The position numbers and the translations under genes are program-made. The notes beneath the pieces were generated by a model. The model had not been told where the DNA came from. It did no database searches and saw only the letters and a program-made list of their open reading frames with translations. This document shows, piece by piece, positions 3,304 through 61,700 of a stretch of DNA of 64,000 nucleotides. This stretch comes from Bacteroidia bacterium. Its GTDB lineage: Bacteria > Bacteroidota > Bacteroidia > Flavobacteriales_D > Cryomorphaceae. The stretch is from NCBI GenBank assembly GCA_030427905.1, contig JAUICL010000001.1, positions 558,001 through 622,000 of the forward strand, written 5' to 3'. The stretch's first letter is position 1, and each line of letters begins with the position of its first letter.

Positions 3304-3306
3304 AGT

Positions 3307-42043: not shown

Positions 42044-42153
42044 GGCTTCAAGATCGAAGCATTCTACACACCTACCTGTGAATAACTGTGAGTCTGTGAA
42101 ACCCTAGGGGGCGCGTATTCCGTATCTTTATGTATTAAACAGAATTTCCCCTT

Positions 42154-43200
42154 ATGACTAGACTATCGCCCCTCGAGGTGGTTGTTTTGCTTTGTTTGAT
42201 TTTGAGTCAAAGTGCCTTTGGCCAAAACTGTGACGACCCACAAGGACTCTGTTCTGGGTCTGGAGCGGAGACCCTTTCTACCGCCAACGGGTTGCCAGCT
42301 GGAATCCCGTCGAACTTTTGCTTTGACACAGCTGACAACGCTGTTTTTTTCGAGTTTACAACCATAGATGTCTCGGCCTTTCCGAATCAAACCTATGAAG
42401 GAGATGCGACTGTATCGGTAACGGGTATTTCATGCGATCCTGATGCCGATTTAGGGCAATCCGTCAACATGGCGATTTTTACTGCCACGGATCCCTGCGA
42501 TCCATCCACGTTTGGTACTCCGCTTGAGTGTCAGACTGAAATTAGCGGGAATGCGAATGTGGACTTATCTGGTCTTGCTGAAGGAACTACGTATTACATC
42601 TTAATTTCAGGCGCTGAAGATGGTGGAGCCATTAACCCAGGTGAATGTGAATTATCTGTGGGTGTGGATGGACCTGCCGTGTCATTCGATTTGAATGCTG
42701 ACTTCCAACTTGAAGGTAGTCAAGGTGACCAGATTATACTTGAAGGTCAGACTGTTGAGCTTTTTGCCGATGATGCTTTTCCAAACCTTACCTGGTCGGG
42801 TGAAGGTCTGAATCAAACCGAAGGAACTCCCGTTACGGCCTTGCCGCCAGGGCCTGCACCGCAAGAGTATACCTACACGGTTACTTCCGAAATAGATGGC
42901 TGCTTATATGTTGATCAAGTGACATTTACACTTCGAAGAGCTATCCAGCCCTATTCTGGATTCACACCAAATGGCGATGGAATCAACGATACCTGGGAGA
43001 TCAGCAGAATCGAAGAATGGGAGAACGCCCAGATTATTGTCTATTCGCGTTGGGGAACTAAGGTGTTTCAAGCCACCCGCTACAACAATGATTGGGATGG
43101 GGACGACCTACCCGCCGCGACATACTACTACGTGATCGAATTGAATGATCTCCAGTTTAACCTCGAGCCTATCACTGGCTCAGTAACCATTATGCGATGA
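42154..43200 (+). CDS. T9SS type B cargo, small (gliding-motility-associated C-terminal domain)
   Basis: 348 aa with a signal peptide (cleavage near AFGQ, residue 24). The middle is a beta-rich region with Cys-rich segments near the N-terminus. The C-terminal 85 residues are a type B (CHU_C-like) sorting domain: GFTPNGDGINDTWEI, VYSRWGTKVFQA, NNDWDG, and ATYYYVIEL. It should be exported through T9SS, and type B cargos need a PorP/SprF-like partner. That partner starts in the overlapping ATGA at 43197. It is the first gene of the six-gene cargo/SprF operon. Confidence 0.88.
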   Translation: MTRLSPLEVVVLLCLILSQSAFGQNCDDPQGLCSGSGAETLSTANGLPAGIPSNFCFDTADNAVFFEFTTIDVSAFPNQTYEGDATVSVTGISCDPDADLGQSVNMAIFTATDPCDPSTFGTPLECQTEISGNANVDLSGLAEGTTYYILISGAEDGGAINPGECELSVGVDGPAVSFDLNADFQLEGSQGDQIILEGQTVELFADDAFPNLTWSGEGLNQTEGTPVTALPPGPAPQEYTYTVTSEIDGCLYVDQVTFTLRRAIQPYSGFTPNGDGINDTWEISRIEEWENAQIIVYSRWGTKVFQATRYNNDWDGDDLPAATYYYVIELNDLQFNLEPITGSVTIMR

Positions 43201-44132
43201 GGAAATTCGGATGGATCATCGTGCTCGTCTTGATTGCGCATACTGTATCTGCGCAGCAGTCTGGCCAGTACACCAACTTCATGTTTAATGCATTCGCTAT
43301 AAATCCGGCAAATGCTGGGCTTAAAGAGTGTTTTGAGTCGAGAATTGGATATCGTCATCAGTGGGTTGGCTTCGAAAACAATCCGCAAAGCCTTGTAGCC
43401 ACAGGGCACTGGAGACTTAAGAAAATTAGCAGTGAAAGAGGCGCCATTCACGGAATGGGAGCAATCGTGGAAGCTGATAATACCGGCCCTTCGAGCCGCA
43501 CGACTATCCATGCCGCGTACGCCATTCACTTGCGTATGAATCGTAATACTCGTCTTTCATTTGGTGTTGGACTTGGTATGATGCAGTACAGGTTTGATGC
43601 AGCCTTAATTCGGGTTCCCGACCCAACTGATCCAGTGGTGGCTCAATCAAAATCTGAAATTGTGTTTCCGGATATAAAAGCCGGAGTTTGGCTCTATGGA
43701 AAGGGCTGGTTTGCGGGTTTGAGTGCCGATCACCTGACAAACCCCACTCTACAAGATATTGGTGAAGACGTCAACATACAACCTCATTTTAGTATGATGG
43801 CTGGAAAGGTATTTCCAACAGGAGAAAAAATGAGTGTGATTCCTGCGGGGCTTCTAAAATTTACGGCAAACACGAAGCCTTCTTTTGACGCAAATGTGTG
43901 GTTGGATTACGATGAAAGAGTGGCGGTTGGACTTGGGTTTCGATCAGAAGATGCTGTGTCCGGAATGTTAAAGTTTAACTTTTTGGACTATTTCACCGTA
44001 GCATATGCTTACGACTATACTTATTCGAAAATAAGATTGGGTTCGTCCAATTCTCACGAGATCATCCTGGGAATAGCGGCTTGCCCGAGAAATAAAAAAG
44101 CAGGGTTCGTTCCCTGTCACGCATATGATTGA
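43197..44132 (+). CDS. PorP/SprF-family type IX secretion membrane protein (first copy)
   Basis: 311 aa with a signal peptide (cleavage near VSAQ, residue 20) and the beta-barrel PorP/SprF pattern: YTNFMFNAFAINPANAGLKE near 25-44, YRHQWVGFENNPQS, and a final strand set ending YAYDYTYSKI...SHEIILG. SprF-like proteins sit in the outer membrane and are needed for secretion and display of their matched type B cargo. It overlaps the upstream cargo stop by 4 nt and the adhesin start by 8 nt, so the pairing with the 348-aa cargo is likely. Confidence 0.92.
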   Translation: MRKFGWIIVLVLIAHTVSAQQSGQYTNFMFNAFAINPANAGLKECFESRIGYRHQWVGFENNPQSLVATGHWRLKKISSERGAIHGMGAIVEADNTGPSSRTTIHAAYAIHLRMNRNTRLSFGVGLGMMQYRFDAALIRVPDPTDPVVAQSKSEIVFPDIKAGVWLYGKGWFAGLSADHLTNPTLQDIGEDVNIQPHFSMMAGKVFPTGEKMSVIPAGLLKFTANTKPSFDANVWLDYDERVAVGLGFRSEDAVSGMLKFNFLDYFTVAYAYDYTYSKIRLGSSNSHEIILGIAACPRNKKAGFVPCHAYD

Positions 44133-47100
44133 TTGTAAGGCATTTGGGAAATTTGCGCTACTCTTGGCCGCCTTCCTGGTTATGGTTGGCGAAGTCGAGG
44201 CGGATGTTTTTAGGTGGAAGTCCGGATCGGGTGATTGGTCTGCAGCACATCACTGGATGAATGTAGATGGCTCTGCAAGGAGTATGCCTGGAGCTGGAGA
44301 TGATGTTTGGATTGAAACAAACACTGATATTCAAATCGAGCTGGAAGGAACGATCGACATTCGATCTTTAACTATCTCAGGAGAAGGCGATGTTGTATTT
44401 TCTTCTTCGGCAGATGCAGTGATTAATATTAGCCGAAGCTTTATTGCCTCCCAGAAAACATTTGCCGAGAATGGTGTGTCCTTCAATCTACTCAATACAA
44501 ACGGACAAGCTTTTAAACAGCTTTCGAATGGAGTTTCGAGTAAAGTTGTTGATAATGGAGCGCAACCGGTTGCTGCGGCTGCGGGTTCTTGCCCATTCTT
44601 CACCATTGTGGCTGATCCAACAGCTCCTACGTGTAATGGTTCTGATGACGGAATAGCCGCGGTGCTAGAACCAACCGATGGAGTAGGGCCTTACACCTAT
44701 CAGTGGATTGGTGGACCTAATACACCATCGTGGTCTAATCTTGGCGCTGGAACATACACAGTCATTGTCATCGACATAGGTCAAGGTGGACTTCCTTGTA
44801 ACGTAGACGTATTCGTGAATGAGCCTGGACCGCTAACAGTGTTTTCGATGAATGCTTCTGCTCCACTCTGCGCCGATGTTTGTAATGGTACAGCAACTCC
44901 TATTGTTATAGGTGGAAATGGTGGGTACAGTTACGATTGGTCAAGTGGTGAAAGCGGCATTTCTGCATCACAACTCTGCCCTGTCTTTACGCTCGAAGTA
45001 ACAGACCAGCTAGGCTGTCAGTTTGATACGACTTACATCTTTCCAAATACGCCGGATACCATTCAGTTTAATGCCATTCTGACTCCAGTCGATTGTTTTG
45101 GCGATGATGATGGAGCCATTGATATGACTGTAACAGGCGGAGTTTCGCCTTTTGCCTTTTCATGGACGGGACCTAATGGATTCACATCGAGCTCGGAATC
45201 GATCGGGCCGTTGGAGCCAGGAACGTACACCCTGAGCGTCGAAGACTCAAACAACTGTTTGGCTGATTCTTCATTCATTATTACCGAAAATCCACTTCTC
45301 GAAGTTTCTGAAACCCATGTCGACAATCTCTGTGGCGGTGGGTTTGAAGGAGAGATTGACCTGACCCCAACCGGGGGGCTTCCTCCTTACACATATGCTT
45401 GGAATGGCCCAAATGGCTTTACATCGACCGATGAAGATTTGATCGGCTTAGAATCGGGATTGTACCAAGTGACCGTTACGGATGCCGTGCTCTGTACTGC
45501 CGTAATGGATGTGACGATAGCAGAACCATCCGAGTTAGATATCGATTTTACACCAACCCATGTGCTTTGTTTTGGAACAAACACAGGTTCCATTGACGCC
45601 ATTGGCTCTGGTGGATTGCCAGGGTATGCTTATGATTGGACGGGCCCCGATGGATTTGTTGGGACGGGCACAACCATTTCCGACCTCTTGGCGGGGATGT
45701 ACTACCTCACGCTGACTGACCAAAATAGCTGTCAGCTTTTAGATTCAGTAGAGGTAACTGAACCCGCATTACTTGAGATTACCCTAGATCAAACACCGCT
45801 CACTTGTAATAACGGTGATGATGGGTCTATTGACCTGACTATCACAGGTGGTACTCCCGGGTATATCATTTCCTGGACTGGGCCGAATGGCTTCACTTCT
45901 TCAGGCGAGGACATTTCAAATCTCGAAGCTGGGGTGTATGATGTGGAAGTTGAAGATAATCTTGGCTGCATCGTGACGGGTTCTTTAGAATTGCTCAATC
46001 CCGATGTTATTGTTCTGAGTGCAGACGTGAGCCAAACGCTTTGTCCGAATTCTACTGACGGAGCCATTGATTTGACCATTACGGGTGGTACCGCACCTTT
46101 CGCTTTTGACTGGACTGGACCAAATGGTTTTGTCTCTTCGGATGAAGATATTTCGAATCTCGAGCCAGGTGACTATACCATCGTGCTGATCGACGCTACC
46201 AATTGTTCTGTAACCGATACCTACACCATTACTTCCCCCGATGAAATAGGAGTCGTATCTACAGTTGGTGAAGTGCTTTGCTTTGGAGAGGCCACAGGTA
46301 CAATTACTACGGCCGTTACTGGTGGAACCGCTCCTTATAGTTTCAGTTGGACAGGTCCTGACGGATTTACTTCTTCTGATCCAAATCCAGCCGGGCTGGC
46401 TGCAGGTATCTACGATTTGACCATTACTGATTTCAACAATTGTCAAGGAAACTTCAGTGTTGAAGTAACTCAACTTGACGAAATCACGTGGACTGAAACA
46501 ATTGTGGACGCATCTTGTTTCGGATTTTCAGATGGATCCATTTCTCTCGAAATTCAAGGGGGAACACCTACCTATACTTTCGGTTGGGTAGGTCCAAACG
46601 GCTTTACGAGTACTGATGAAGATATCGCCAACCTAGAAGCGGGAACCTATGATTTGACGATTACAGACAGCAATGATTGCGTGGTTTCAACTAGTTTTGA
46701 AGTTGGAGAGCCAAGCGTACTTTCAATTGACGCTACCGTGTCTGACGCGCTTTGTGCCGGAGATTCGAATGGAGCTATTTCTATTATCCCGTCTGGTGGG
46801 ACGGCAAACTATAGTTTCGATTGGGCTGGTCCCAATGGGTTTACATCTACTGATCAAGACATTTCAGGGTTGGAAGCCGGTGACTATACGTTGACACTCA
46901 CTGATGCCCAAAGCTGTGTTCTAGTCGAAACGTATACGATCTCAGAAACTTTCTTACTCACAGGTACACCCACCACTCAAGACGTGTCGTGTTTTGGTTC
47001 AGCTGATGGTAGTATTGACCTTGCTGTCAGTGGAGGGCAAGAGCCGTATGATATCGCGTGGACGGGCCCTAATGGGTTTGCTGGAGCTGGAGCAAATATT

Positions 47101-50100
47101 TCAGCTTTGGAATCGGGAGATTACGATGTAACAGTAACTGACGATAATGGCTGTGTGTTACAGGCGACCTACAGTGTTGGTTCCCCAACTGAAGTTCTTG
47201 GAAATCTGGATATCACCCACATTTCATGCTTTGGAAATACAGATGGCGGTATCGCTGCCAACCCTGCTGGAGGTACTGGCCCTTACGCGATCTCTTGGAC
47301 AGGTCCCAATGGCTTTACATCGAACTCTTTTGTGATAAATGGACTTGAAGCGGGAGTTTATTCAGCTACCATTGAAGACTCGCAAAATTGTACTGTGGTG
47401 GTTGACGGTGAAGTGCTTGAGCCTTCTGAGATCACGGTTAATGTCTTGATTACTGAACCGAGCTGTACCGCCGATGATGGCATTTTGAATGCTCAGCCAA
47501 CAGGTGGAACGATCGTATCGAACTACACCTACAGTTGGGAAGATGAAACGGGAACAGAAATTAGCACAGATGCCGAAATAACAAACTTGGCACCCGGTGA
47601 GTACACGATAACTGTTACCGACGACAATGGTTGTGTTGGGTCAGAAACCGTCGAATTGACAAGAGATTCTTTTGAAGTTTTGGTTTCAGTTTTTGATGTA
47701 TCCTGTAGTGGTGAGACTAATGGAGCCATCGAAATAGAAATTGTTGGTGGAACGGCACCATTTGCTCTCGGATGGACCGGCCCCAACGGCTTTACATCTT
47801 TGGATGAAGACATTTACAACCTCGAAGGAGGGGACTATGAGCTGTCTATTCTCGACAATACGGGATGTCAGTACTTTGAAGTGTTTACGGTGGGGTCACC
47901 TGCCCCAATTTCTTTTGTGGCTGATGTGACTCATGAATCTTGCCCCGGAAATCATGACGGAGCCATTACCCTCACAGTGGCTGGAGGAAGTCCTGGGTTC
48001 TTGTACCAATGGAGCGGGCCGAACAGCTTCTTCAGTAATGGAAATCAAATTGATAACCTGGAACCTGGAACTTATGGGGTTCACGTAGTGGATATTCAGG
48101 GCTGTAACGCCAGTAGTGTAATTGAGATAAATCCAGGAGCTGAATTTGAGATATCTGGCATTCTTGCTGATCCACTCTGTGTAGGTTCGGCTGATGGGAG
48201 CATAGATATTTCGATTACAGAAACTGTTGGTTCATCAGCGCCATTTACCTATAGCTGGATTGGTCCTGATGGTTTTGTGTCTGACATTGAAGACATAACT
48301 GGACTTGTTTCAGGAGATTATGAAGTTTTGGTGACCGGAGCCAATACATGCACGAGTTCGGCCACATTCACTTTAAGCAATCCAGATTCAATTTTTATTG
48401 ATGTTGTGGTGCAGAACGCAAACTGTCAACAAAGTGATGGAAGTGCTGAAGCTAATGCTAATGGTGGTACGGGAACTTTTACCTATGAATGGTTTGATAG
48501 CGATGGGGCAAGTATAGGAAACCAAGCTTTGTTGCCCAACATTGCTTCTGGTCAGTACACGGTCGTCGCCACAGATGTTAACGGGTGTACAATTACAGAG
48601 CTTGTGGTCGTTTCTGATCTCAATGGAGATATTCAAGGTGTGGTGGTTCACCCTACATGTTTTGGTGGAGATGATGGAAGCATAGATATTTCAATCGACG
48701 GAGCTACAGATCCATTGACATACAATTGGACCAATGGAAGTGGAAGTTTTGTTTCTGACGAAGAAGACTTGATAAACATCTCTTCGGGATCATACACCAT
48801 TCAGGTGACCGACTCGAACGGTTGTCTTTACCTAGCTACATTTGAAGTAACAGACCCAGACCAGATTGTTGTTTCACCAATTCTAGTGCCTGTGAGTTGT
48901 GCTGGAAATGATGGAAGTATCTCGTTGAACCCAAGTTTGGGAATGGCGCCATACATTATCGTCTGGAGTGGGCCTGATGGTTTTTCTGGAACAGGTAATT
49001 TTATTCAAAACCTTGTACCAGGAGATTATACCTATAGCGCGGTGGACATGAACAACTGCGATGCAACAGGAACCATCTCACTGCCGTTGGTGCCGGATAT
49101 TGTCGCTACAGAAACAATTTCAAATGTGACTTGTGGGGGAATACCAACAGGGGCGATCGACCTTGAAGTGAGTGGAGGACAAGCTCCTTACACGTTCACA
49201 TGGACTGGTCCCGATGGGTTTACAGCAGACACTGAAGACATCGAGAACCTGTCAGGTGGAACTTATGATGTTTCCATTACTGATGTTTCAGGATGTCAAA
49301 TTGCCGTCCAGTACACTGTGCTTGAAAATCCACCAATTGAATTGACTGTCAATGCCGTTAACCCTGATTGTTTGTCGAATAATGGTAGCATATCAGTGAC
49401 TGTTAGTGGTGGTGTCGTAACAAATGAGTACTACATCAATTGGACTAGCGATACAGGATCTCCCCTCCCGCAGGACTTAAACCTTGTAAATCTTGGTGTG
49501 GGATCATACAATCTTTTTGTCGCTGACGACAACACTTGTTTTATCGATACGACAATAATACTGACCAATCCGGGAGGCGATATCCAAGCTACCGCTTCAG
49601 AGCTAGCTTGTTCTTACGGATCGGATGGAACCATAGGGCTTACTATTGCTGATGTAACTGCTCCGTATACGGTAAGTTGGACTGGACCTAATGGATATGT
49701 GGGTGCAGGTGAGCTGATTGCGGGTCTCGAAGCTGGCGTGTACACATACGAAGTAGAAGGAGCTGATGGATGTATTTACATTGGTACTTCAACCATCAAT
49801 GCACCTGATATGATTATCGTGACATCCGACCATTTGGCATCCTGTTTCGGGGAGAATTCTGGTTGGATAAGCATTGAAGTATTTGGCGGAGTAGGACCTT
49901 ACCTGATTTCTTGGACTGGGCCGAATGGGTTTACTTCAGATCAGCTTGATCTTGTAGACCTCGAGCCGGGCACATATACTTTGACGGTTGAAGATGACAA
50001 CGCTTGTATTTACACCGAAGACTTCGAAATTCTTGAAAACACGGAAATGGTGTTGACAGAGTCGATCACGCAAGTGCTTTGTTACGGCGATTTGACGGGA

Positions 50101-51753
50101 GCTATTGATATTCAGTTGGCAGGCGGTACCCAGCCGTACAATATCACCTGGTCTGGGCCAGATAACTTCCATAGCGACCTACTTTCTATATCTGGAGTTG
50201 GCGCTGGTTTATACCAGATTGAAATAGTTGATGCCATCGGCTGTGCAGTTTCGGCAAGTTTTGAAATCACCGAACCTGACCCACTTCTAGTGTCAAGTTC
50301 TTTTGAGAATCCGGGTTGTTCGGGTGTCAATGATCTAGGGTCAATAGATTTGGAGCCTAGTGGAGGTGTACCAGACTATACCGTGACTTGGACAGGCCCA
50401 AATGGATTTACTTCTAGCGATTTCAATTTGATCGATCTGGAAGCGGGTACTTATGTGTACACGGTCGAAGATTTGAACGGCTGTACGGTAGATGATGCCA
50501 TAGAGCTTATCGAAGCAACTCCCCTTGATTTGACCTTGGATGTCACTGAGATTTCTTGCTTTGGAGAAGTGGATGGGTCTATTGAGACGATAGTGACTGG
50601 TGGTCAGCCAGAGTATGTCTATTCTTGGACGGGTCCAAATGGATTCACATCCGATCAGGCTGAAATTGCCGGGTTGGGAGCAGGAGAATACATTATTGAA
50701 GTAACCGATGAGAATGGGTGTTTTGCCACCGATTCTTACATCTTGGTTGAGCCTTCAGAATTAATAGTGGATATCACAGCCGTTGTAGATGCATCTTGCA
50801 ACACTGCAAATGATGGGAGCATGGAGTCTACCGTTTCTGGTGGAACATCGCCCTATGTCTATGAGTGGTCGGGTCCTGATGGGTTTACTAGTGACATGCC
50901 GGAGGTTGAGAACCTCGCTCTAGGTGAGTACACACTTTTGGTAACTGACAGTCGCGGATGCGCTGGCGACGATACAGCCATTATAGACTCACCGATCGAA
51001 GTCTTAGCTTTTGCAGGGCCTGATACAGCATTCTGTGTGGAGACTTTGCCGCAGATCCTTATTGGGTCGGGTCAAGACGCGACAGGTTTTGCCTGGACCA
51101 CCATCGATCTAGATACGTTGAGCAATGATGCGCTGCTTGAAGTAGATGAAGAGCCTGGCGTGTACGAGTACATTCTTCACGCCGACAACGGGATTTGCAG
51201 TCACATGGATACCGTGCAAGTAACCATAAACGATCAGCCAGAAGCAGATGCTGGTCCCAGTCAAGATGTTTTTGCTGAAGAAGTATTCACTTTGGGAGGA
51301 AACCCAACATCGCCTACGGGTGTAATATTTGAATGGTATCCGAACCCTACGGGGAGTCTCGATACAACACTAGCTAATCCAACCGGCTTTATCACAGAAA
51401 CCACTGAGTTTTTCGTGATTGTGACAGATGGAAATGGATGTACCCAAACCGATAGTGTGCTAATCAATCTCATCCCCGATGTATCGGTGAGCTCGGGATT
51501 CACACCAAACAGTGACGGAATAAACGATACGTGGATTATTGATAATATGGAACTATTCCCAAACAACGTCGTAAACGTTTTCGATCGTTGGGGAATATCC
51601 GTATTCGAGGCCAAGGGCTACAATAGCGGATCGGCCTGGGACGGTACCTACGAAGGAAAACCGCTTCCAATAGGAACGTATTACTTCAGTATCGAGCTGA
51701 ATGATGCGCGATTCCCAGATCCAATTACAGGACCAATAACGATCTACAGATAA
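44125..51753 (+). CDS. Giant SprB-repeat T9SS adhesin
   Basis: 2542 aa, the largest gene in the window. After an N-terminal signal-anchor-like hydrophobic stretch (about 8-26) and a beta-rich head (about 28-150), there are 27 recognisable SprB-type repeats (about 72-80 residues each, roughly residues 160-2290). Each has a W-T-G-P-(N/D)-G-F core, a conserved (L/V)xxGxYxxxxxD beta element and a closing Cys. Two further Ig-like segments follow, then a type B sorting domain (GFTPNSDGINDTWII, FDRWG, GSAWDG, GTYYFSIEL). SprB of Flavobacterium johnsoniae is the cell-surface gliding adhesin with the same repeat. Repeat cores differ in sequence and codon choice, so expansion looks old rather than recent. 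The next gene is its likely SprF partner (TAATG overlap). Confidence 0.9.
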   Translation: MIDCKAFGKFALLLAAFLVMVGEVEADVFRWKSGSGDWSAAHHWMNVDGSARSMPGAGDDVWIETNTDIQIELEGTIDIRSLTISGEGDVVFSSSADAVINISRSFIASQKTFAENGVSFNLLNTNGQAFKQLSNGVSSKVVDNGAQPVAAAAGSCPFFTIVADPTAPTCNGSDDGIAAVLEPTDGVGPYTYQWIGGPNTPSWSNLGAGTYTVIVIDIGQGGLPCNVDVFVNEPGPLTVFSMNASAPLCADVCNGTATPIVIGGNGGYSYDWSSGESGISASQLCPVFTLEVTDQLGCQFDTTYIFPNTPDTIQFNAILTPVDCFGDDDGAIDMTVTGGVSPFAFSWTGPNGFTSSSESIGPLEPGTYTLSVEDSNNCLADSSFIITENPLLEVSETHVDNLCGGGFEGEIDLTPTGGLPPYTYAWNGPNGFTSTDEDLIGLESGLYQVTVTDAVLCTAVMDVTIAEPSELDIDFTPTHVLCFGTNTGSIDAIGSGGLPGYAYDWTGPDGFVGTGTTISDLLAGMYYLTLTDQNSCQLLDSVEVTEPALLEITLDQTPLTCNNGDDGSIDLTITGGTPGYIISWTGPNGFTSSGEDISNLEAGVYDVEVEDNLGCIVTGSLELLNPDVIVLSADVSQTLCPNSTDGAIDLTITGGTAPFAFDWTGPNGFVSSDEDISNLEPGDYTIVLIDATNCSVTDTYTITSPDEIGVVSTVGEVLCFGEATGTITTAVTGGTAPYSFSWTGPDGFTSSDPNPAGLAAGIYDLTITDFNNCQGNFSVEVTQLDEITWTETIVDASCFGFSDGSISLEIQGGTPTYTFGWVGPNGFTSTDEDIANLEAGTYDLTITDSNDCVVSTSFEVGEPSVLSIDATVSDALCAGDSNGAISIIPSGGTANYSFDWAGPNGFTSTDQDISGLEAGDYTLTLTDAQSCVLVETYTISETFLLTGTPTTQDVSCFGSADGSIDLAVSGGQEPYDIAWTGPNGFAGAGANISALESGDYDVTVTDDNGCVLQATYSVGSPTEVLGNLDITHISCFGNTDGGIAANPAGGTGPYAISWTGPNGFTSNSFVINGLEAGVYSATIEDSQNCTVVVDGEVLEPSEITVNVLITEPSCTADDGILNAQPTGGTIVSNYTYSWEDETGTEISTDAEITNLAPGEYTITVTDDNGCVGSETVELTRDSFEVLVSVFDVSCSGETNGAIEIEIVGGTAPFALGWTGPNGFTSLDEDIYNLEGGDYELSILDNTGCQYFEVFTVGSPAPISFVADVTHESCPGNHDGAITLTVAGGSPGFLYQWSGPNSFFSNGNQIDNLEPGTYGVHVVDIQGCNASSVIEINPGAEFEISGILADPLCVGSADGSIDISITETVGSSAPFTYSWIGPDGFVSDIEDITGLVSGDYEVLVTGANTCTSSATFTLSNPDSIFIDVVVQNANCQQSDGSAEANANGGTGTFTYEWFDSDGASIGNQALLPNIASGQYTVVATDVNGCTITELVVVSDLNGDIQGVVVHPTCFGGDDGSIDISIDGATDPLTYNWTNGSGSFVSDEEDLINISSGSYTIQVTDSNGCLYLATFEVTDPDQIVVSPILVPVSCAGNDGSISLNPSLGMAPYIIVWSGPDGFSGTGNFIQNLVPGDYTYSAVDMNNCDATGTISLPLVPDIVATETISNVTCGGIPTGAIDLEVSGGQAPYTFTWTGPDGFTADTEDIENLSGGTYDVSITDVSGCQIAVQYTVLENPPIELTVNAVNPDCLSNNGSISVTVSGGVVTNEYYINWTSDTGSPLPQDLNLVNLGVGSYNLFVADDNTCFIDTTIILTNPGGDIQATASELACSYGSDGTIGLTIADVTAPYTVSWTGPNGYVGAGELIAGLEAGVYTYEVEGADGCIYIGTSTINAPDMIIVTSDHLASCFGENSGWISIEVFGGVGPYLISWTGPNGFTSDQLDLVDLEPGTYTLTVEDDNACIYTEDFEILENTEMVLTESITQVLCYGDLTGAIDIQLAGGTQPYNITWSGPDNFHSDLLSISGVGAGLYQIEIVDAIGCAVSASFEITEPDPLLVSSSFENPGCSGVNDLGSIDLEPSGGVPDYTVTWTGPNGFTSSDFNLIDLEAGTYVYTVEDLNGCTVDDAIELIEATPLDLTLDVTEISCFGEVDGSIETIVTGGQPEYVYSWTGPNGFTSDQAEIAGLGAGEYIIEVTDENGCFATDSYILVEPSELIVDITAVVDASCNTANDGSMESTVSGGTSPYVYEWSGPDGFTSDMPEVENLALGEYTLLVTDSRGCAGDDTAIIDSPIEVLAFAGPDTAFCVETLPQILIGSGQDATGFAWTTIDLDTLSNDALLEVDEEPGVYEYILHADNGICSHMDTVQVTINDQPEADAGPSQDVFAEEVFTLGGNPTSPTGVIFEWYPNPTGSLDTTLANPTGFITETTEFFVIVTDGNGCTQTDSVLINLIPDVSVSSGFTPNSDGINDTWIIDNMELFPNNVVNVFDRWGISVFEAKGYNSGSAWDGTYEGKPLPIGTYYFSIELNDARFPDPITGPITIYR
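44600..51000 (+). repeat. 27 SprB-type protein repeats in the adhesin gene
   Basis: The WxGPxGF-type cores number 27 when read along the protein, spaced about 72-80 codons apart, with matching closing Cys residues. Sequence drift between units is high at DNA level, although a few pairs share short stretches, for instance gatggaagcatagatatttc near 48194 and 48673. Boundaries are approximate. Confidence 0.8.
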
Positions 51754-52670
51754 TGAAAGTCAGAACAAACATATTGCTTGTACTTTTCCTTTCGTGTATG
51801 GGGACTACCGTCTTTGGTCAACAAATTCAACAGTTTACCCAGTACCAATGGTCTGGGATAAGCTTCAATCCGGCATTTACGGGAAAGGATAATTACTTCA
51901 ATGCACTCGCCGTTCACCGAACGCAATGGACGGGCATTCAAGATGCGCCGCGCACTTACTTTATGAGCCTCGATGCGCCGAGCCGTTCCAAGAAAATGGG
52001 ATTTGGTGGAATGCTCTATACCGATGTTGCTGGGCCTACGCGTCGTTTTGGAGTGCAAGGAGCCTATGCGTATCATATCCAAACGAGCGAGAAGACTAAG
52101 CTTTCTCTTGGACTAACTTTTGGAATTACGCAGTTGACCATTGATGGTTCTCAGATTACGCTTAGAGAAGATGGCGATCAAACACTGACTGATCAAGTGG
52201 CCTCGGAGACTACGCCTGATGCCAATTTTGGAGCCTTGTGGTACAGTGATAAGTTTTATGTTGGTGTATCGGCAAATCAAATTTTGAACAACCAACTAGA
52301 TATGTTTCCGGGCGATGGCGATGGAAATCTAGCCGTACACTATTTCCTAACTGGGGCCTATCGCTTCGACTTGGGTGAAAAATTCCAAGTAGAACCATCA
52401 ACCTTAGTAAAGTACGTAGATCCACTCCCTGTTCAAGTCGATCTTTCGGCCCGATTTATTTACGATGGTAACCTTTGGCTTGGAGGTACGTATCGGAGTG
52501 ATGATGCAGCAGCCGTTTTTGCTGGATATCAGATTATGAATTACTTAACCATAGGCTACTCTTATGACATTACGACGTCTAAATTGAAGAAGTACGCTGA
52601 TGGCACACATGAAATTTTTATACAGTTCAAGTTTGGCAAAGCGCAAATGTTGGACAGAAATGAAAACTAA
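51753..52670 (+). CDS. PorP/SprF-family membrane protein (second copy)
   Basis: 305 aa with a signal peptide (cleavage near VFGQ, residue 23). The PorP/SprF features are FTQYQWSGISFNPAFTGKDNYFNALAVHRTQWTGI, abbreviated here as SFNPAFTGK and HRTQWTGIQDAPRT. It ends in strands TIGYSYDITTSKLKKY and THEIFIQFKF. It is the likely outer-membrane partner for the giant adhesin; its ATG overlaps the adhesin stop by 1 nt (TAATG). Its own stop overlaps the next gene start by 11 nt (ATGAAAACTAA). Confidence 0.92.
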   Translation: MKVRTNILLVLFLSCMGTTVFGQQIQQFTQYQWSGISFNPAFTGKDNYFNALAVHRTQWTGIQDAPRTYFMSLDAPSRSKKMGFGGMLYTDVAGPTRRFGVQGAYAYHIQTSEKTKLSLGLTFGITQLTIDGSQITLREDGDQTLTDQVASETTPDANFGALWYSDKFYVGVSANQILNNQLDMFPGDGDGNLAVHYFLTGAYRFDLGEKFQVEPSTLVKYVDPLPVQVDLSARFIYDGNLWLGGTYRSDDAAAVFAGYQIMNYLTIGYSYDITTSKLKKYADGTHEIFIQFKFGKAQMLDRNEN

Positions 52671-55600
52671 AACCAAAACGATGACTCCCCTAAAGAAAAC
52701 AAAAAGTATTCTGCTGTTTGGACTCTTCACAATGCTCTTCACCGGAGCATTTGCCCAGCTCGATACCAAACACTGGATTCCCCCATTCTACGCAAAACCT
52801 GGACCTGGGTCAGGAACATCAAATTTGAGAGATCACTTTGTCAGCTTATCTACTCCTACCGAAGACACCATTCCTGTTGTGATTCGAGACGGCTTTGAAA
52901 ACCTGATCGATACCGTATGGATATCGCGTGATACGCCGCAGGAATACTATTTTTCACCAACGGGGAATGCAAACACAGATACCTATCCATTAAATGTTAT
53001 TCCCACAGATAGTCTTAATATGAAGATTCGCTCTCAAGGACTTTACTTTAGTAGTTATCAGCCATTCTTCGTGAATATGAGACACAAAGCGGGATCTCAA
53101 GGATTTTCACTTACTTCCAAAGGGCAAGTTGCTCTTGGTGACAGGTTTTATTCTGGACACATTCATACTATTTACAATAATTCGGATGTGTGGAACAATG
53201 AACGTAGATCACACTTCATATCTGTCATGGCAACAGAAGATAATACGGTGATTACATTTGATATGATCAAAGATCCAATAAATTATATTGGACACACCCA
53301 GGGTGAAGATATCGTAGTTACTCTCGATGCCTTTGAGTCATATACCATAGGTGTTGATCATTCATTGTATGACAATGCGACTATCAATAACGCCAACGGT
53401 ACTAGAATTACTTCAACAAAACCAATAGTATGTAATAGTGGATCATGGCTTTCGGGTAATGAAAGTGGTCAATGTATTGGTGCAGACCAGTTGGTTCCTG
53501 CAGAAGTTACTGGACAGGAATATATACTGGTACGTGGTTTAGGGGATGAAACCACAGAACGGCCAATGGTTGTAGCGACTGAAGATAATACGGATGTATT
53601 TATCAACGGTAGTGCCACGCCTGCGGTAACACTTGATGAAGGAGAGTTTTACTTTATCCCAACGGCAGATTTCTCTACCGACGACAATATGTACGTGCTG
53701 GCAACCGAAAAAGTGTTTATGTTTCAGACTCTTTCTGGTTCAGCTACGGAAATTGGGCCAACAGTTGGGTTAAACTTTATCCCCCCATTAAATTGTATTG
53801 GCGCAAAAGAAGTTGTTCTTCCCTTTGTTAACAGCCTTGCCGCTAATGATGGAGAAGGTCGGATTAACATTGTAACAAAAGCCGGGACTACCATTTACGT
53901 CAATGAGTCAGGAGCTCCACTGACGGGTGAATCTCCTGTGCCTGGAAATCCGGATTGGGTGACCTATTCGTTCAACCCACCTTCCGACAATGTTATTCTG
54001 GAGAGTGATTCAGTAATGAATGTTGCACTGCTAACACGTGATGGAGTTGTAGGTTCCGCAGGATACTTTAGTGGATTTACCCTTGAGCCAGTTGTTGGTT
54101 TGAGTACAGGTGTTACGGGAACCCTTCCTTGTATTCCAGGTAATGCGGTAATGCAGGTATTCGGGTTTGACGCCTACCAATGGTATTTTAACGGAGAAGA
54201 AATTGAAGGAGCAACGGGAAGCACGCTCTTCCCGGAATTCGCCGGAGACTATATGGTGGAAGGTCTTGATCTGGCCTGTGGTTTCCGATTCCCTTCAAAT
54301 AGTTTTACGATTCCTTATTGTCCTTCTACACTCGGTTCGGCTAAGGCTGCACAAAGTGTTGTTGAGACTGCACCTGGGTCGAGAATATTTGATATCACTT
54401 ACCAAATATTTGTTGAGAACCTCGCAGAGAGTGCTTCCCAAAACATACAGGTAATTGAGAGTATTAATGGTGGACTCCCAGCTGGAGCTACTGCTGAACT
54501 TATTGGATCTCCTACACTTACATTCGGTATTTTGACTGGTGGTGTAAACCCTGATTTTGATGGGGTTACCGACAGGCGTTTATTACCTGGTAATGGATCG
54601 CTTCCTGGCGGTGCAGCTGATGCCATCAACCTTGTAATCCGAATTGATATGAACGGAGCGGAGCAAGATGGCTATTTTGACCAAGTTACCGTGACGAGTA
54701 AAGATGGTGTGGTAAACAATGGTATCGATGGGCCATTTAATGGTCAAGACTTTTCGCATGCAGGAACCAACCCAGATCCAAATGGAAATGGAGAGCCAAA
54801 TGAAGATGGAGAGAACGATCCGACTTTGACATGTTTCTTCACACATGATATTACTTACGATGCTGAGTCTTTTTGTACGGCTGACGCACCGAAAGTTGTA
54901 GAAATCGATGGGGTGAATAGTGGTGTGTTTACGGTAGATGTGGAAGGATTAAATATCGACCCGATCACTGGTACTATAGACCCTTCACTCAGTGATCCGG
55001 GAACATATATTGTGACTTTCAACACAGATGGAAGATGCCCGACGGAAACCACAACAGAAGTAACGATCGTTCAGCTTCCAGATCCAGGAACAGAAGCATC
55101 TGTCCTCGAACTCTGTGTGACGGATGACGCCGTAAATCTTAGCGATTTCATTGAAGGTGAAGACGAAGGTGGTTCATGGACTGATAGCGATGGAACGCCA
55201 ATTCCAGATGGAACATTTGATCCATTCGCACCAGGAACCTTCGGTTTTATATACACTGTTGAAGCAGCGCCTTGCGACCCGCAGTCAATTGCTATTGACT
55301 TGACTGTTGTTCCAGAACCAAACCCTGGAATGTCTATTGAAAATCCGCTTGTTTGTGCGGGAGATGGTCAAGCAGACCTGGATGATTTCCTAGAAGGACA
55401 AGATGCTGGTGGAGAATGGACAGATGAAGACGGAACGGTATTACCTGATGGAATTATCACCTTGTCGGATGCAGGAATCGAGACTTACTTTTACACGGTG
55501 TCAAACGCGGCGTGTGGTGAGCGCAGTTCACAACTCGACTTAAATGTGATCGCCGTACCAGATGCTGGTGTACCTCTTGGTGATCCGATAATGATCTGTG

Positions 55601-56331
55601 CTGGTGAAGACCTGAACTTGTTCGACTTCTTAGTAGGAGCTGATGACGATGGCGTCTGGACTGATTCGGAAGGAGAAGACGTTGATCCAACCGAGCCGAT
55701 TTATGAAATTGGAACGCAGACATATACTTACACGATTGATAGAACGGTATGTGAAGTGGCTACAACTTCTATAAATGTGGAAGTGGTAGAAGGACCTAGT
55801 GCTGGAGAGCCATTAGATCCGACCCCATTGTGTTCAGAAAGTGAAGCCGTTAACTTGATCAACTTTATGCCTGGAGCTGATGCCGGTGGTATCTGGACAG
55901 ATGAAGACGACAATGAAGTACCTGGGTTCTTCAAGCCAGAAGGAGAAGGAACTTATATGTTTACCTATACCGTCACGAGTCCTGAGTGTGGGAATATCCG
56001 AAAAGACCTGAATCTAGATGTCTCAGAAGAGAACTGTTTTGATGACGGGATAGTGATACCCGAAGGTTTCTCGCCAAATGGTGATGGATATGGAGATTTC
56101 TGGATAATTGGTGGACTGGAGTATCACCCTGACCACACTGTTACCATATTTAACCGATGGGGAAGTGTAGTATTCTCTGCCAGTCCCTACAACAATAACT
56201 GGGATGGGAAGTCTGATTCTGGATTGAATTCAGGAGAACCACTTCCAGTAGGGACTTACTTCTACACCATTGAATTTGGTGGAAGTGATGAAACGAAATC
56301 AATGAGTGGGTATATATACCTCAATAGATAG
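52660..56331 (+). CDS. T9SS type B cargo with IgGFc-binding-like N-terminus
   Basis: About 1223 aa from ATG 52660; a start at 52681 is also reasonable, and the longer frame to 52600 overlaps the upstream gene. A signal peptide ends near GAFAQ. Residues about 40-490 resemble the IgGFc-binding N-terminal domain (repeated EDNT/TEDNT segments, SGNESGQCIGADQL, YFIPTADFS). A central adhesin-like region follows, then four WTD-containing repeats (about 810-1125). The C-terminus is a type B sorting domain (GFSPNGDGYGDFWII, IFNRWGSVVF, NNNWDG, GTYFYTIEF). Likely a cell-surface or extracellular adhesin. Its SprF-like partner starts 26 nt downstream. Confidence 0.86.
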   Translation: MKTKTKTMTPLKKTKSILLFGLFTMLFTGAFAQLDTKHWIPPFYAKPGPGSGTSNLRDHFVSLSTPTEDTIPVVIRDGFENLIDTVWISRDTPQEYYFSPTGNANTDTYPLNVIPTDSLNMKIRSQGLYFSSYQPFFVNMRHKAGSQGFSLTSKGQVALGDRFYSGHIHTIYNNSDVWNNERRSHFISVMATEDNTVITFDMIKDPINYIGHTQGEDIVVTLDAFESYTIGVDHSLYDNATINNANGTRITSTKPIVCNSGSWLSGNESGQCIGADQLVPAEVTGQEYILVRGLGDETTERPMVVATEDNTDVFINGSATPAVTLDEGEFYFIPTADFSTDDNMYVLATEKVFMFQTLSGSATEIGPTVGLNFIPPLNCIGAKEVVLPFVNSLAANDGEGRINIVTKAGTTIYVNESGAPLTGESPVPGNPDWVTYSFNPPSDNVILESDSVMNVALLTRDGVVGSAGYFSGFTLEPVVGLSTGVTGTLPCIPGNAVMQVFGFDAYQWYFNGEEIEGATGSTLFPEFAGDYMVEGLDLACGFRFPSNSFTIPYCPSTLGSAKAAQSVVETAPGSRIFDITYQIFVENLAESASQNIQVIESINGGLPAGATAELIGSPTLTFGILTGGVNPDFDGVTDRRLLPGNGSLPGGAADAINLVIRIDMNGAEQDGYFDQVTVTSKDGVVNNGIDGPFNGQDFSHAGTNPDPNGNGEPNEDGENDPTLTCFFTHDITYDAESFCTADAPKVVEIDGVNSGVFTVDVEGLNIDPITGTIDPSLSDPGTYIVTFNTDGRCPTETTTEVTIVQLPDPGTEASVLELCVTDDAVNLSDFIEGEDEGGSWTDSDGTPIPDGTFDPFAPGTFGFIYTVEAAPCDPQSIAIDLTVVPEPNPGMSIENPLVCAGDGQADLDDFLEGQDAGGEWTDEDGTVLPDGIITLSDAGIETYFYTVSNAACGERSSQLDLNVIAVPDAGVPLGDPIMICAGEDLNLFDFLVGADDDGVWTDSEGEDVDPTEPIYEIGTQTYTYTIDRTVCEVATTSINVEVVEGPSAGEPLDPTPLCSESEAVNLINFMPGADAGGIWTDEDDNEVPGFFKPEGEGTYMFTYTVTSPECGNIRKDLNLDVSEENCFDDGIVIPEGFSPNGDGYGDFWIIGGLEYHPDHTVTIFNRWGSVVFSASPYNNNWDGKSDSGLNSGEPLPVGTYFYTIEFGGSDETKSMSGYIYLNR
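55098..56034 (+). repeat. Four tandem WTD repeats in the IgGFc-like cargo
   Basis: Four units of about 78-83 codons, each starting with a Cys-containing strand, then (D/N)F(I/L/M)xGxDxGGxWTD, and ending before the next Cys. The core reads GGSWTD, GGEWTD, DGVWTD and GGIWTD in order. They are not SprB repeats. Boundaries are approximate. Confidence 0.7.
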
Positions 56332-56357
56332 AACCAAAACCTCTAATTGATACGATT

Positions 56358-57302
56358 ATGCGACAATCAATCATATTAAAACTGGGTGTCTTGGCCATGC
56401 TCGCTTTGACGGCATTGCCTTCCCAAGCCCAACAGCAGCCACTCTACACCATGTATATGTGGAACCAATTGATCATCAACCCAGCCTATGCCGGAAGTAG
56501 AGAAGCACTCTCTTTTACAGGTGTTTTGCGAGAGCAATGGGTTGGCCTTGATGGAGCCCCATCTACCCAAGTGTTGAGTGTACATTCACCACTTCCCAAC
56601 GATAATGTTGGACTTGGATTAACCATCCAAAACGACAATATCGGCCCGACCAATACTACTGGAGTTTGGGGTGATTTTGCCTACCGGATCAAAGTGACTG
56701 AGAAGTCTAAATTGTCACTCGGACTTCGAGCAGGGTTTGGCATTCACCAAGCCGATTTCTCGAAATTGGATAATGTCGATCCAGATGACCCAGTCTTCAA
56801 TTCGAACGTAGAAAATAACTTCATGCCTAATTTCGGATTTGGAGCCTATTACTACGGTGCGCGCGGATACGCTGGGATTAGTGTCCCGACGATTCTCGAG
56901 AATGAATTGAATAGTGGAAGTAACGTCGGCGATGCACAAGACGTGAATCAACCACACTTTTACCTACTTGGTGGATACGTTTTCAGCTTGAGTAAGGACA
57001 GCACAGGTGTGATGTTTAAACCATCTACTGTGGTACGTGTGATCAATGGCGGGCCTGTAAGTGTCGATGTGTCGGCCAACTTCCTGATCAAACAAAAACT
57101 ATGGCTCGGTGCGGCGTATAGAACGGAAGATTCTTTCGCAGCGATTATCTCCTTCAACTTCACTCCGAAGTTCCAAGCGGGATACTCGTATGACTTTGGT
57201 ACCAGTGACCTGAATAGTTATCACAACGGTAGCCATGAAGTGATGCTTCGGTATGACTTGTTCAACGACGATGTCAAAACGAAGAGTCCGCGATATTTTT
57301 AG
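56358..57302 (+). CDS. PorP/SprF-family membrane protein (third copy)
   Basis: 314 aa with a signal peptide (cleavage near SQAQ, residue 25). PorP/SprF features: YTMYMWNQLIINPAYAGSRE near 30-50, LREQWVGLDGAPSTQVLSVH, GLGLTIQNDNIGPT, and final strands AGYSYDFGTSDLNSY and SHEVMLRYDL. The closest to the classical family of the three copies. It is the last gene of the cargo/SprF operon and is followed by a strong terminator. It lies 26 nt after the IgGFc-like cargo stop. Confidence 0.94.
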   Translation: MRQSIILKLGVLAMLALTALPSQAQQQPLYTMYMWNQLIINPAYAGSREALSFTGVLREQWVGLDGAPSTQVLSVHSPLPNDNVGLGLTIQNDNIGPTNTTGVWGDFAYRIKVTEKSKLSLGLRAGFGIHQADFSKLDNVDPDDPVFNSNVENNFMPNFGFGAYYYGARGYAGISVPTILENELNSGSNVGDAQDVNQPHFYLLGGYVFSLSKDSTGVMFKPSTVVRVINGGPVSVDVSANFLIKQKLWLGAAYRTEDSFAAIISFNFTPKFQAGYSYDFGTSDLNSYHNGSHEVMLRYDLFNDDVKTKSPRYF

Positions 57303-57325
57303 AGTTAAAAAATATTTAAAAGAAG

Positions 57326-57356
57326 AATCTCCCAGTTTCATGGGAGATTTTTTTTT
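57326..57356 (+). terminator. Terminator of the cargo/SprF operon
   Basis: AATCTCCCA-GTTTCA-TGGGAGATT (9-bp stem, 6-nt loop) followed by a run of T's to about 57356. It lies between the third SprF gene and the rhodanese gene. Confidence 0.9.
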
Positions 57357-57818: not shown

Positions 57819-58117
57819 TGGCGAACTTCAAAGAAATAGTGAACGGCGATACACCCGTTCTTGTCGATTTCCATGCCGATTGGTGTGGGCCTTGTCAAAC
57901 GATGAATCCAATTATTGACCAGTTGGCCAAAGATGAGAAAGGGAAGATTCGAATCTTGAAAGTCAACATCGATAAGAATCCCCAAGCTGCCAATGCCTTC
58001 CAAGTTAGGGGAGTGCCTACCTTTTTGCTTTTCAAGGCAGGAAAAGTGGTTTGGCGAGCATCTGGTGCTATGCCCTTAAGCGATTTAAAAGGTCAATTAG
58101 CCTATCACCTAGGGTAA
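57818..58117 (+). CDS. Thioredoxin
   Basis: 99 aa from ATG 57818; the open frame extends to 57782 but that overlaps the rhodanese gene, whereas the TGATG junction is a typical coupled start. The active site is WCGPC (near 21-25) within DFHADWCGPCQTM, with the cis-Pro loop RGVPTFLLF near 65-73. No signal peptide, so it is cytoplasmic. It is convergent with the deacetylase gene, overlapping by 9 bp at the 3' ends. Confidence 0.93.
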   Translation: MANFKEIVNGDTPVLVDFHADWCGPCQTMNPIIDQLAKDEKGKIRILKVNIDKNPQAANAFQVRGVPTFLLFKAGKVVWRASGAMPLSDLKGQLAYHLG

Positions 58118-58723
58118 AGCTGCACATTCCCAACCTTTGCCCCGAAAGTGCTCTAAAGTAGCTGGCAATGCGCCCAAGACGTTTTCTTTTGCTTTGATAC
58201 TGTCGTGAAAGACAATAATAGAGCCTGGTTTGGTGTGCCGTTTGACGGTCGCTAAGCAATCTTCGGGACGCTTACTCGCAATCCAGTCACCGGGCAAGAC
58301 ATCCCACATGATGATTTTAAACCGCGCTTTTAAACTCTTTACCTGACTACGCTTAATACGGCCATACGGTGGACGAAAGAGGTCTGAATCGACCACTTCT
58401 GCACATTCCAGTGTATTTCTCAAATAAGAAAAGTCACTAAACTGCCACCCATTCATGTGGTTCCAGGTATGGTTTCCCACGCGATGGCCACGGGCTAGAA
58501 TGTCTTGGTAGAGTTTTGGATTTGATGACACATTTCCCCCGATACAAAAGAAGGTAGCCTTGGCTCCATACTCATCGAGAATGTCGAGTACCTTATCGGT
58601 TACCCCAGGCGTAGGTCCATCATCAAATGTTAGGTAAACCTTGTTGGATACGCCGCCAAGACTCCAAATCAGATCTCCCGCCAAAGGCTTGAGAATATCT
58701 GGAGTCTTGGCGAGGTAAACCAT
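58109..58723 (-). CDS. Polysaccharide deacetylase family protein (NodB domain)
   Basis: 204 aa. The NodB motifs are present: TFDDGPTPG near 32-40, HRVGNHTWNHMNG near 81-93, and RPPYGRIK near 117-124. These are zinc-dependent amidases that remove acetyl groups from GlcNAc-type polymers such as peptidoglycan. No signal peptide is evident, but the N-terminus could be an uncleaved membrane-proximal segment. It lies 2 nt downstream of the DUF2723 gene on the same strand. Confidence 0.92.
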   Translation of the reverse strand: MVYLAKTPDILKPLAGDLIWSLGGVSNKVYLTFDDGPTPGVTDKVLDILDEYGAKATFFCIGGNVSSNPKLYQDILARGHRVGNHTWNHMNGWQFSDFSYLRNTLECAEVVDSDLFRPPYGRIKRSQVKSLKARFKIIMWDVLPGDWIASKRPEDCLATVKRHTKPGSIIVFHDSIKAKENVLGALPATLEHFRGKGWECAALP

Positions 58724-58725
58724 GA

Positions 58726-61700
58726 CTAGAAGCTTACTCTCGGTTGAGTACGGTAGGCTTCAATTTCTTGAATCTTCAAGTCAAACGCTGCATCTAGCTC
58801 GTCGAAACGACTTTTAATCTTACTCTTCATCTCTTCGTCTTGTGGGTACATTTGATTCACAAAAAGATTCAGTCGCTGCACCACAGCAAAACTCATTTGA
58901 ATGTCTTGTTGAAGTTGAATAGCATCTTCAACATCCACAGACATGTAGTATTCAAAGTCTTCAGCGTATCGCTCAAACACTTCTTCTAAGATTTCATTAG
59001 CTTTTTCGTCATCACCAATGCGGTAGTAGTTTTGGATAATCGGAACCATCAAGCGATCATAAGGCACGTTGTGGTTTGGCATTACCTCCACGCACTTGTC
59101 CAGCACATTTTTAGCCTTATCGGTTTTCTCTTCAGCGATAAGCTGTTCAGCCAGATTCGCAAATTGTAGACGGATATTATTCGTCATGCGCAGGTTGTTC
59201 TCATCCATGTAGATCTGGTCGTCGCCTTCCATTCCACCCCATTTGAACTTCTCCATCACGTTGGTGTACATGGCCTCGGTGTTTACCGATCCGTACATAT
59301 TCGGATTAGGATTGTTCTCGCTCTTCACTGGTGTGAGCTGATATGCCAACCCAACGAGCTTGAAGTACTCATCCAAATTGATGTAACTGTCAGGACCAGT
59401 TGTAACGGCAAAGTAAATCGGACGTTCCCATTTATTAGTCGCAAATAGGTCGAGCTGCATCAAGTTATTTTTCAGTAAGTAGCTTCGGTCGATTCTCCAT
59501 TCTACACGGTCGGAAATATTCGCTGTATCCTCTACGCTAACAAGTCCGTTTCGAAGTACTTTTTCCTTATCTACAGGGATGTAGAAGTTCTTCGTCGGCA
59601 TCAAGGCGATTTTTTCACCACCACGACCTGCTCTCAGGTTTTTGTCATCGCCTATGAACGCAATAGCCTGCTCCACGTTGACGTGAATTCGATTTGGGTT
59701 GTTGGTTTCATCCAAGAATACCACATCTCTCGTTCCCTGACGGTACTTCGTTTCCTCAAGAGAAAAAGGAACCGGATCAGAGTCATAAACTTTGCGCTTC
59801 ATCTGGTTGATATACCAATCGGTGTTCAAGAGACTCAGGTTTACAACGCGCACATCCGTACGGATGCCTTCCACTTCCTGAGCATACCACAGTGGGAATG
59901 TGTCGTTGTCACCGTTGGTAAACAAGATGGCATTTGGCTCACAGCTTTCCAGATAATTGGAAGCAAAATCGCGAGCGGTATATCTACCCGAACGGTTGTG
60001 ATCGTCCCATCCTTCAGCGGCCATCAAAAGGGGCACAGGAAGTGTAATGACCGTAACGATGATTCCCAAAAGCTTCGGATTCTTCGTTTGCTTATTCAAG
60101 AATATCATCAACGCCGTAAGCCCTAAACCGATAACGCCAAGGTATGCCACGCTGTAAGAGAAGAAATGGCTCGATTCTCCTGCACCCATCATCTCCAAAA
60201 GGTAGATAGCGCCCGCAGATCCAAGCACGTACATTCCAACCTTTTGCAATTGCTTCATGCTAATCGTAAATGCCGCTTCAAACAAGGCGTAAACCCCCAG
60301 CCCAATCCAGATGGCATAGGCATAGAAGGAGCCTGCGTACGCGTAATCGCGCTCCCGCGGTTGATATGGTGTCTGGTTTAGGTAAACCACAATGGCCAGA
60401 CCTGTAAACAAGAAGAGTAAGAGCGTTACGAACCAATCGTCAGGACGTCGGTAAAGCTGGTAGAGCAAACCGATAAGACCCAGCAAAAGCGGAAGCATAA
60501 AGAACTTGTTGTAGGCAAAGTTGTCCTTCAAACTACTTGGCAAATTATCTTGTGACGCCAATCGCTCATTGTCTATAAAGTTTACACCCGATAGCCAGTT
60601 ACCGTTGAGTAGGTCACCGTGTCCTTGAATGTCGTTTTGTCTTCCGGCAAAATTCCACATAAAGTATCGCCAGTACATCCAATTCACCTGGTATCGGAAG
60701 AAGAAGCGAAGGTTTTCGGAGAATGTTGGCTTGTTTATCGTGGTTGGGGCACCATCTGGGCCTGTAGCACGAATGGGAGTTCCCTTGTACTCCGACCATA
60801 CCTTGTAGGCTCTGATGTGGTTGTCTTGAGCACTGTACATTCGCGGAAATGGATCGGTAAACTTCTTGTCGTATTTGATGATGGACTGTTTCCGATCATC
60901 TGATACCACATACTCTTGATCAATTTCATAGGGCTGGCCCGAAGCGCTAACAAAGGCTTCGGCATCGAATTTTTCTGTAAACCAATCGATGGTTCTACCA
61001 GCTGAGTTTTTAACAACCCAAGCCTTGGCGTAAACTGGTTTTCCATCTGCTCTTCCTTCCTGACCGGGAGCCTGAGGCGAATTCCAGTACTGGCCATGAG
61101 CCAATGGACGGTCTCCATACTGCTCACGGTTGAGGTAAGAAAGGAGTGTAATTACGTTTTCGGGATTGTTTTCATCCAAGGGTGGATTGGCTGAAGAACG
61201 GATAAGAATAACCGCAAAGGTGGAATAACCGAGGATGATTACGACAATCGAAAGAATGGCCGTGTTGAAACTTGGCATGTTTTTCTTGTGGGTGAAAATG
61301 AGCCCATAAGTGAGTACGGCGATGGTGAGAATCGCATAGACGATTACCCCTGAATTAAATCCAAATCCGAGATCATTAACGAAGAATCGCTCGAAGCTTC
61401 CGGCCAATGAAACGACACCTGGGATAATGATACCCTGCACGGCTCCAAGTACCACCAAGGATAGGATGAATGTAATGGCGAGACCTTTCGGGCTCGGCTT
61501 ATAGCGCTTGAAGTAGAATACAAAGCACATGGCTGGGATGGCGAGAAGGTTCAAAAGGTGAACCCCGATCGACAGTCCAATCAAGTAGGCGATTAAGACA
61601 ATCCAGCGCATTTCCGTTTTACCGTCCGAGAGGCTTTCCCAACGGAGAATGGCCCAGAATACAGCGGCGGTAAACAGCGATGACATGGCGTATACTTCAC

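Follow-up and report, generated by a model that had tools for sequence, protein, structure and literature searches.

At this locus, six genes on the forward strand form a single row in a 64,000-nt stretch of Cryomorphaceae DNA (hereafter, the window), with the unit of cargo and then porter repeated 3 times. Their reading frames are open at the following coordinates:

42044..42153, + strand: 110-nt gap 5' of cargo 1, presumed promoter region
42154..43200, + strand: cargo 1, small protein of 348 aa with a C-terminal type B sorting domain (TIGR04131, 58.8 bits; PF13585, 81 bits)
43197..44132, + strand: porter 1, PorP/SprF family barrel of 311 aa (TIGR03519, 223 bits)
44125..51753, + strand: cargo 2, SprB-like giant adhesin of 2542 aa with a type B sorting domain (TIGR04131, 68.2 bits; PF13585, 75 bits)
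51753..52670, + strand: porter 2, PorP/SprF family barrel of 305 aa (TIGR03519, 282 bits)
52660..56331, + strand: cargo 3, 1223 aa with a type B sorting domain (TIGR04131, 58.6 bits; PF13585, 87 bits)
56358..57302, + strand: porter 3, PorP/SprF family barrel of 314 aa (TIGR03519, 291 bits)
about 57319..57356, + strand: intrinsic terminator, a hairpin running into a T tract (-20.5 kcal/mol, z -5.1)

The alternating order of cargo and SprF-type genes and their coordinates in the first-pass annotation are exact to the base, and recomputation of the junctions returned the same values, namely overlaps of 4, 8, 1, and 11 nt followed by a 26-nt gap (-4, -8, -1, -11, and +26 nt in order). An alternative start for cargo 3, an ATG at 52600 upstream of 52660, would give a longer overlap with porter 2. 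The description of the products as type B T9SS cargos with PorP/SprF partners also stands, since all 6 proteins exceed the curated cut-offs: 35 bits for the C-terminal sorting domain (TIGR04131), exceeded by all 3 cargos, and 90.55 bits for TIGR03519, exceeded with full-length matches by all 3 porters, which belong to the TIGR03519/PF11751 carrier family. As type B substrates, the 3 cargos would be secreted by the T9SS independently of PorV. Beyond the sorting domain, cargo 2 carries 23 SprB repeats (PF13573, 627 bits), and cargo 3 has an IgGFc_binding-type domain (PF17517, 111 bits). By sequence, no PDB relatives were found for porter 1, cargo 1, or cargo 3. A structure model of cargo 1 (pLDDT 68) gave weak, low-TM matches to tandem Ig-type adhesins, which we discounted as evidence, and the model of a cargo 3 fragment was poor (pLDDT 49).

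All 6 genes are probably carried on one transcript; the tight junctions are consistent with this, as is the single terminator, a strong hairpin found 3' of porter 3, where one had been placed at the operon end. Our pattern scan of the + strand found no exact Bacteroidota -7 element (TANNTTTG) at any operon junction and none in the 110-nt gap 5' of cargo 1, where TATCTTTA near 42124 has one mismatch. Promoter-like matches across the region numbered 39 vs 29.8 in shuffles (sd 5.2), slightly above, and internal promoters in the operon were set aside, the consensus matches being weak throughout. On the same strand, the operon is preceded by a DUF92 gene and methionyl-tRNA synthetase, and a rhodanese-like gene lies 3' of it. 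No further cargo, porter, or PorE genes were found elsewhere in the window. Of additional note, a TMEM260-like O-mannosyltransferase-type gene and a polysaccharide deacetylase gene lie just downstream on the opposite strand (58109-62124); surface components might be the targets of their modifications. At 63418-63807, the sequence resembles a transposase-type helix-turn-helix domain (PF13022, 31 bits).

We read 85 porter 1 loci from the GTDB order of the window, 7 of them from Cryomorphaceae. Every one of these loci has cargo 1 immediately 5' of porter 1, and cargo 2 and porter 2, when present, come after pair 1. The carrier lies directly 3' of its cargo in 85/85 cases for pair 1, 35/35 for pair 2, and 7/8 for pair 3. 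Within-pair junctions remain tight at the order loci, with a median of -1 nt for both pair 1 and pair 2, whereas porter 1 and cargo 2 stand further apart elsewhere than here (median 111 nt), which points to the pair as the unit. Between genera, orthologous porters share 55-72% identity, and the 3 paralogues about 25-36%. The complete triad occurs on one contig in 4 Cryomorphaceae genomes (the window, L001, L002, and L003), and 4 more genomes of the family hold part of it. Three of these (L004, L005, and L007) have cargo 2 to porter 3 together and porter 1 on a separate contig. In the fourth (L006, genome G001, 3250-3640), cargo 3 is gone, about 205 nt separate porters 2 and 3, and porter 3 is intact; it may therefore have a client elsewhere. 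The third porter was found at 5/5 contiguous Cryomorphaceae loci vs 0/20 well-covered loci outside the family, and full-length cargo 3 orthologues were found only in Cryomorphaceae, a family whose members include Cryomorpha ignava. Pairs 1 and 2 are thus an order-wide unit and pair 3 a Cryomorphaceae addition. As for a separate origin of pair 3, the IgGFc-type domain occurs outside the family in other proteins, and no clear porter stands beside those that we read.

The genome, of 3.81 Mb in 13 contigs, encodes 15 PorP/SprF proteins and about 43 type B sorting domains, as counted from searches. Eleven cargos lie directly 5' of a porter, and 32 sorting-domain places, a few of them weak or partial, have no adjacent porter. 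Three porters have no cargo nearby; they lie upstream of GldK, upstream of GldJ, and on contig C3. The fourth non-adjacent porter follows its own cargo after about 1.5 kb. The T9SS core row of this genome reads PorP-GldK-GldL-GldM-GldN. More than one porter within 15 kb is found solely at the triad. Two other places deserve mention. At about 540-555 kb of contig C3 (L100 1-15462), 3 consecutive type B cargos stand on the same strand, uninterrupted by any porter; the last two share a near-identical sorting-domain end (KREITGFITLVR). From about 282 kb of contig C5 (L095 4969-19901), an open frame of 6195 residues, exceeding the window's cargos in size, carries a type B sorting domain and is paired with a porter of its own.

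Trees of the sorting domains and of the porters were compared across the same 85 loci. Each separates cleanly into position-specific classes (85/85, 35/35, and 7/7 for cargos 1 to 3, and likewise for porters 1 to 3), with only moderate support for the split between sorting-domain classes 1 and 2 (0.79, 0.55), and the two sets of classes co-segregate with zero exceptions. Among the 11 adjacent pairs of the window's own genome, sorting-domain similarity follows porter similarity (Mantel r 0.55, p < 0.001), also when the window's pairs are left out (r 0.56, p 0.0025). Within the 6 most similar pairs, the test was not significant (p 0.12), owing to the unusual likeness of sorting domains 1 and 2 (53% identity) beside only 26% for porters 1 and 2. 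Taking the co-segregation together with the tight packing, the claim of the first-pass annotation that 3 matched cargo-porter pairs are kept in one transcript is probably right, and an operon of dedicated cargo-porter pairs is very likely. Carriers are reported to be cognate, and the sorting domain and carrier to determine static or mobile behaviour (PMC12618676). According to the same study, type B sorting domains show crosstalk when 68% identical but not when 43% or 26% identical. The 53% identity of sorting domains 1 and 2 falls between the first two levels, and crosstalk of these pairs is therefore possible; on sequence, a single SprF-type porter might serve all 3 cargos. Sorting domains 2 and 3 (42%) and 1 and 3 (38%) are at or below the level without crosstalk, which makes it unlikely for them. 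The closest match of the 32 sorting domains without an adjacent porter is never domain 1 or 2, and 2 of them weakly prefer domain 3.

The three porters differ most plainly in their C-terminal tails. The porter 1 tail is ACPRNKKAGFVPCHAYD, in which the cysteine pair is conserved, and a C-x(8-12)-C tail with 3 or 4 residues past the last cysteine is present at 85/85 porter 1 loci; outside the order, the nearest porter 1 matches usually have a two-cysteine tail, with exceptions. A tail cysteine is found in 0/35 porter 2 orthologues (last 24 residues) and in 0/8 of porter 3. Among the three, only porter 3 has the PR[YF]F tail, which we single out from an association found in the present analysis and not from an established criterion: it ends here in ...KSPRYF, and 8/8 Cryomorphaceae members end in PR[YF]F. 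The first-pass annotation suggested that several adhesins may be displayed together; the differing tails argue for different attachment sites, and 3 anchors with 3 distinct tails may take the 3 proteins to different places on the cell. A porter directly upstream of GldJ in the same genome (contig C5, about 931-934 kb; L091 4843-5820, 3063-4808) has a two-cysteine tail (NCRPKSKKFRAINCPQF), like porter 1, and from the listed positions a porter adjoins GldJ in several other genomes of the order as well.

The association concerns PorE-like genes, defined here as encoding PD40 and OmpA domains. Among 46 porters, of which Flavobacteriaceae contributed 32 and the window's own genome 14, a PorE-like gene lies directly 3' of 23/26 porters with a PR[YF]F-type tail vs 2/14 with a cysteine tail (Fisher p 6e-6; p 2e-6 in Flavobacteriaceae alone), and these p-values are optimistic because the set includes paralogues. 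Tails played no part in picking the loci, for which family score or position was used, and the tail classes were set after inspecting the sequences. Among the Flavobacteriaceae loci (L267-L295), nearly all PR[YF]F porters have a PorE-like gene directly 3', and the cysteine-tailed porters are without one. There is no PorE gene in the window and none beside porter 3 in the relatives; a candidate PorE elsewhere adjoins a PRYF-tailed porter (L088). We found no statement of the tail-PorE association in the searched literature, an absence that is not in itself proof. The CxC tail of SprF forms a disulfide with GldK; this tail is required for gliding and dispensable for export (PMC12635249). Carriers linked to PorE are regarded as static (PMC9143113, PMC12618676). 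From these two points, porter 1 would be track-bound, porter 3 wall-bound, and porter 2 neither. That the C-tail of a porter decides where it docks is a proposal to which we give slightly less than an even chance. The wider proposal that carrier C-tails are a destination code for type B T9SS substrates is tentative and less probable than its contrary: a cysteine pair would lead to the moving GldK track, PR[YF]F to the PorE wall anchor, and a tail with neither would leave the carrier loosely held, the operon having one of each and hence 3 fates. Linking porter 1 to gliding through the presence or absence of GldJ was abandoned, since GldJ-model matches occur in 146/150 genomes and leave no variation to test.

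Based on these findings, we propose that the locus is a surface-display operon for 3 T9SS type B substrates, each with a dedicated carrier, directed by the carrier tails to different sites (probability about 0.7). Each cargo would be exported through the SprA translocon, collected by the outer-membrane porter made together with it, and retained at the surface, after which the porter would dock by its periplasmic C-tail to track or wall. Like SprF, porter 1 with its two tail cysteines would attach to the GldK track, and porter 3 with its PR[YF]F end to a PorE wall anchor encoded elsewhere, with porter 2 being free or weakly coupled. Three adhesins could in this way be produced together yet sent to different places. 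Several observations count against the proposal: crosstalk is possible between pairs 1 and 2, porter 3 outlives cargo 3 in L006, and no PorE gene lies near porter 3; the cysteines of porter 1 are spaced C-x(8-12)-C vs CxC in SprF, which lies in another porter clade, and the SprB-like giant is paired with a Cys-less tail in the window, the reverse of Flavobacterium. We read the gene order, the families, the class-wise match of sorting domains and porters, and the position-specific tails directly from the sequences, and from them we infer co-transcription, one carrier per cargo, and a docking choice made by the C-tail. The parts and the principle of such a system are known, including a carrier-GldK disulfide, demonstrated for the carrier SprF (PMC12635249); the three-pair form, an order-wide carrier 1 with 2 cysteines, and the tail-PorE association are new as far as we have checked. 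How type B cargos are routed to moving or static sites of the cell is a question raised in PMC12618676. The position-specific tails turn it into a prediction for the whole order, in which porters with a cysteine pair would be track-bound, those with PR[YF]F wall-bound, and the rest neither, and this one operon offers all three tail classes together.

Dedicated carriers are not the only way to account for the pairing. The 3 porters could form a pool for the 3 cargos with overlapping specificity, the arrangement being kept by history. Sorting domains 1 and 2 share 53% identity and crosstalk occurs at 68%, one carrier can serve 3 orphan cargos in F. johnsoniae (PMC12618676), 32 sorting domains here have no directly adjacent porter, and porter 3 outlasts cargo 3 in one genome. 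We nevertheless consider a shared pool unlikely: the match of sorting-domain and porter classes is perfect over 85 loci, sorting domains and porters diverge together, and the identities of domains 2 and 3 and of domains 1 and 3 lie at or below the level at which crosstalk was absent. It is also conceivable that the row is a neutral cluster of tandem duplicates with no joint function, since the porters are all of one family and tandem orphan cargos occur in the genome too. This we regard as very improbable. The porters are only 26-32% identical to one another, the order and tight junctions are kept between genera whose porters differ by 30-45%, and the third porter is present at every contiguous Cryomorphaceae locus.

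Flavobacteriaceae genomes were located by identity to a solved GldM sequence, which we take to be that of F. johnsoniae, and their operons were then read. In Flavobacterium-like genomes, the cargos are SprC, which is of type B, and the giant SprB; of the porters, SprD is a PorP/SprF barrel bearing a long extension, and SprF ends in a CxC tail. The characterised F. johnsoniae operon is sprC-sprD-sprB-sprF (PMC5879114, citing Rhodes 2011). As SprC-SprD and SprB-SprF are both cargo and porter, two pairs per operon is the textbook state. The first-pass annotation had held 3 pairs to be more than a usual single SprB/SprF pair; this baseline has to be corrected, two pairs being normal in an sprB-type operon and 3 a lineage-specific extension. 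The window shares with sprCDBF the order of small type B cargo, porter, giant SprB-repeat cargo, and porter on one strand, and differs in its third pair. The operon could also be the orthologue of Flavobacterium sprCDBF with one pair added, all 3 cargos being propelled gliding adhesins, and it agrees with this that the SprB sorting domain is closest to that of cargo 2 in 3/4 genomes and that GldJ and GldK are present. We hold this to be unlikely as well. The SprD extension of 400-860 aa (in open frames of about 700-1165 aa) is missing from the 311-aa porter 1, and the SprF CxC tail has no counterpart in porter 2, or in any tail here, porters 2 and 3 being without tail cysteines. The porter tree places the window's porters in clades separate from SprD and SprF, porter 1 apart from the former and porter 2 from the latter, with no specific best match. 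Given the SprF CxC, the SprD extension, and the porter tree, we rejected classing the operon as sprCDBF with an added pair, and we claim a shared layout, not orthology. In 2 of the loci read (L297 4178-7672 and L299 11848-14901), Flavobacterium SprD combines a PorP/SprF barrel with a long TolA-like extension that is without cysteines and probably coiled-coil.

The proposed operon of three dedicated pairs can also be set beside better-known cargo-porter systems. Cognate pairs of the Fjoh_3952/Fjoh_3951 type (PMC12618676) have the same sorting-domain and porter families, and the porter is likewise directly 3' of the cargo; most of those loci hold one pair, and in five of them the operon includes a PorE homologue, whereas the window has 3 pairs and no PorE. 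The PorE-PorP-PG1035 system of Porphyromonas gingivalis (PMC9143113) holds a type B cargo on the surface via a PorP-type barrel, as is proposed here, but it consists of one cargo and one porter with PorE as the wall link, and the operon in the window is without a nearby PorE. The SprF-GldK disulfide (PMC12635249) recalls porter 1 only, the two carriers having 2 tail cysteines in common, spaced C-x-C in SprF and C-x(8-12)-C in porter 1; for porter 1, the linkage itself is a prediction.
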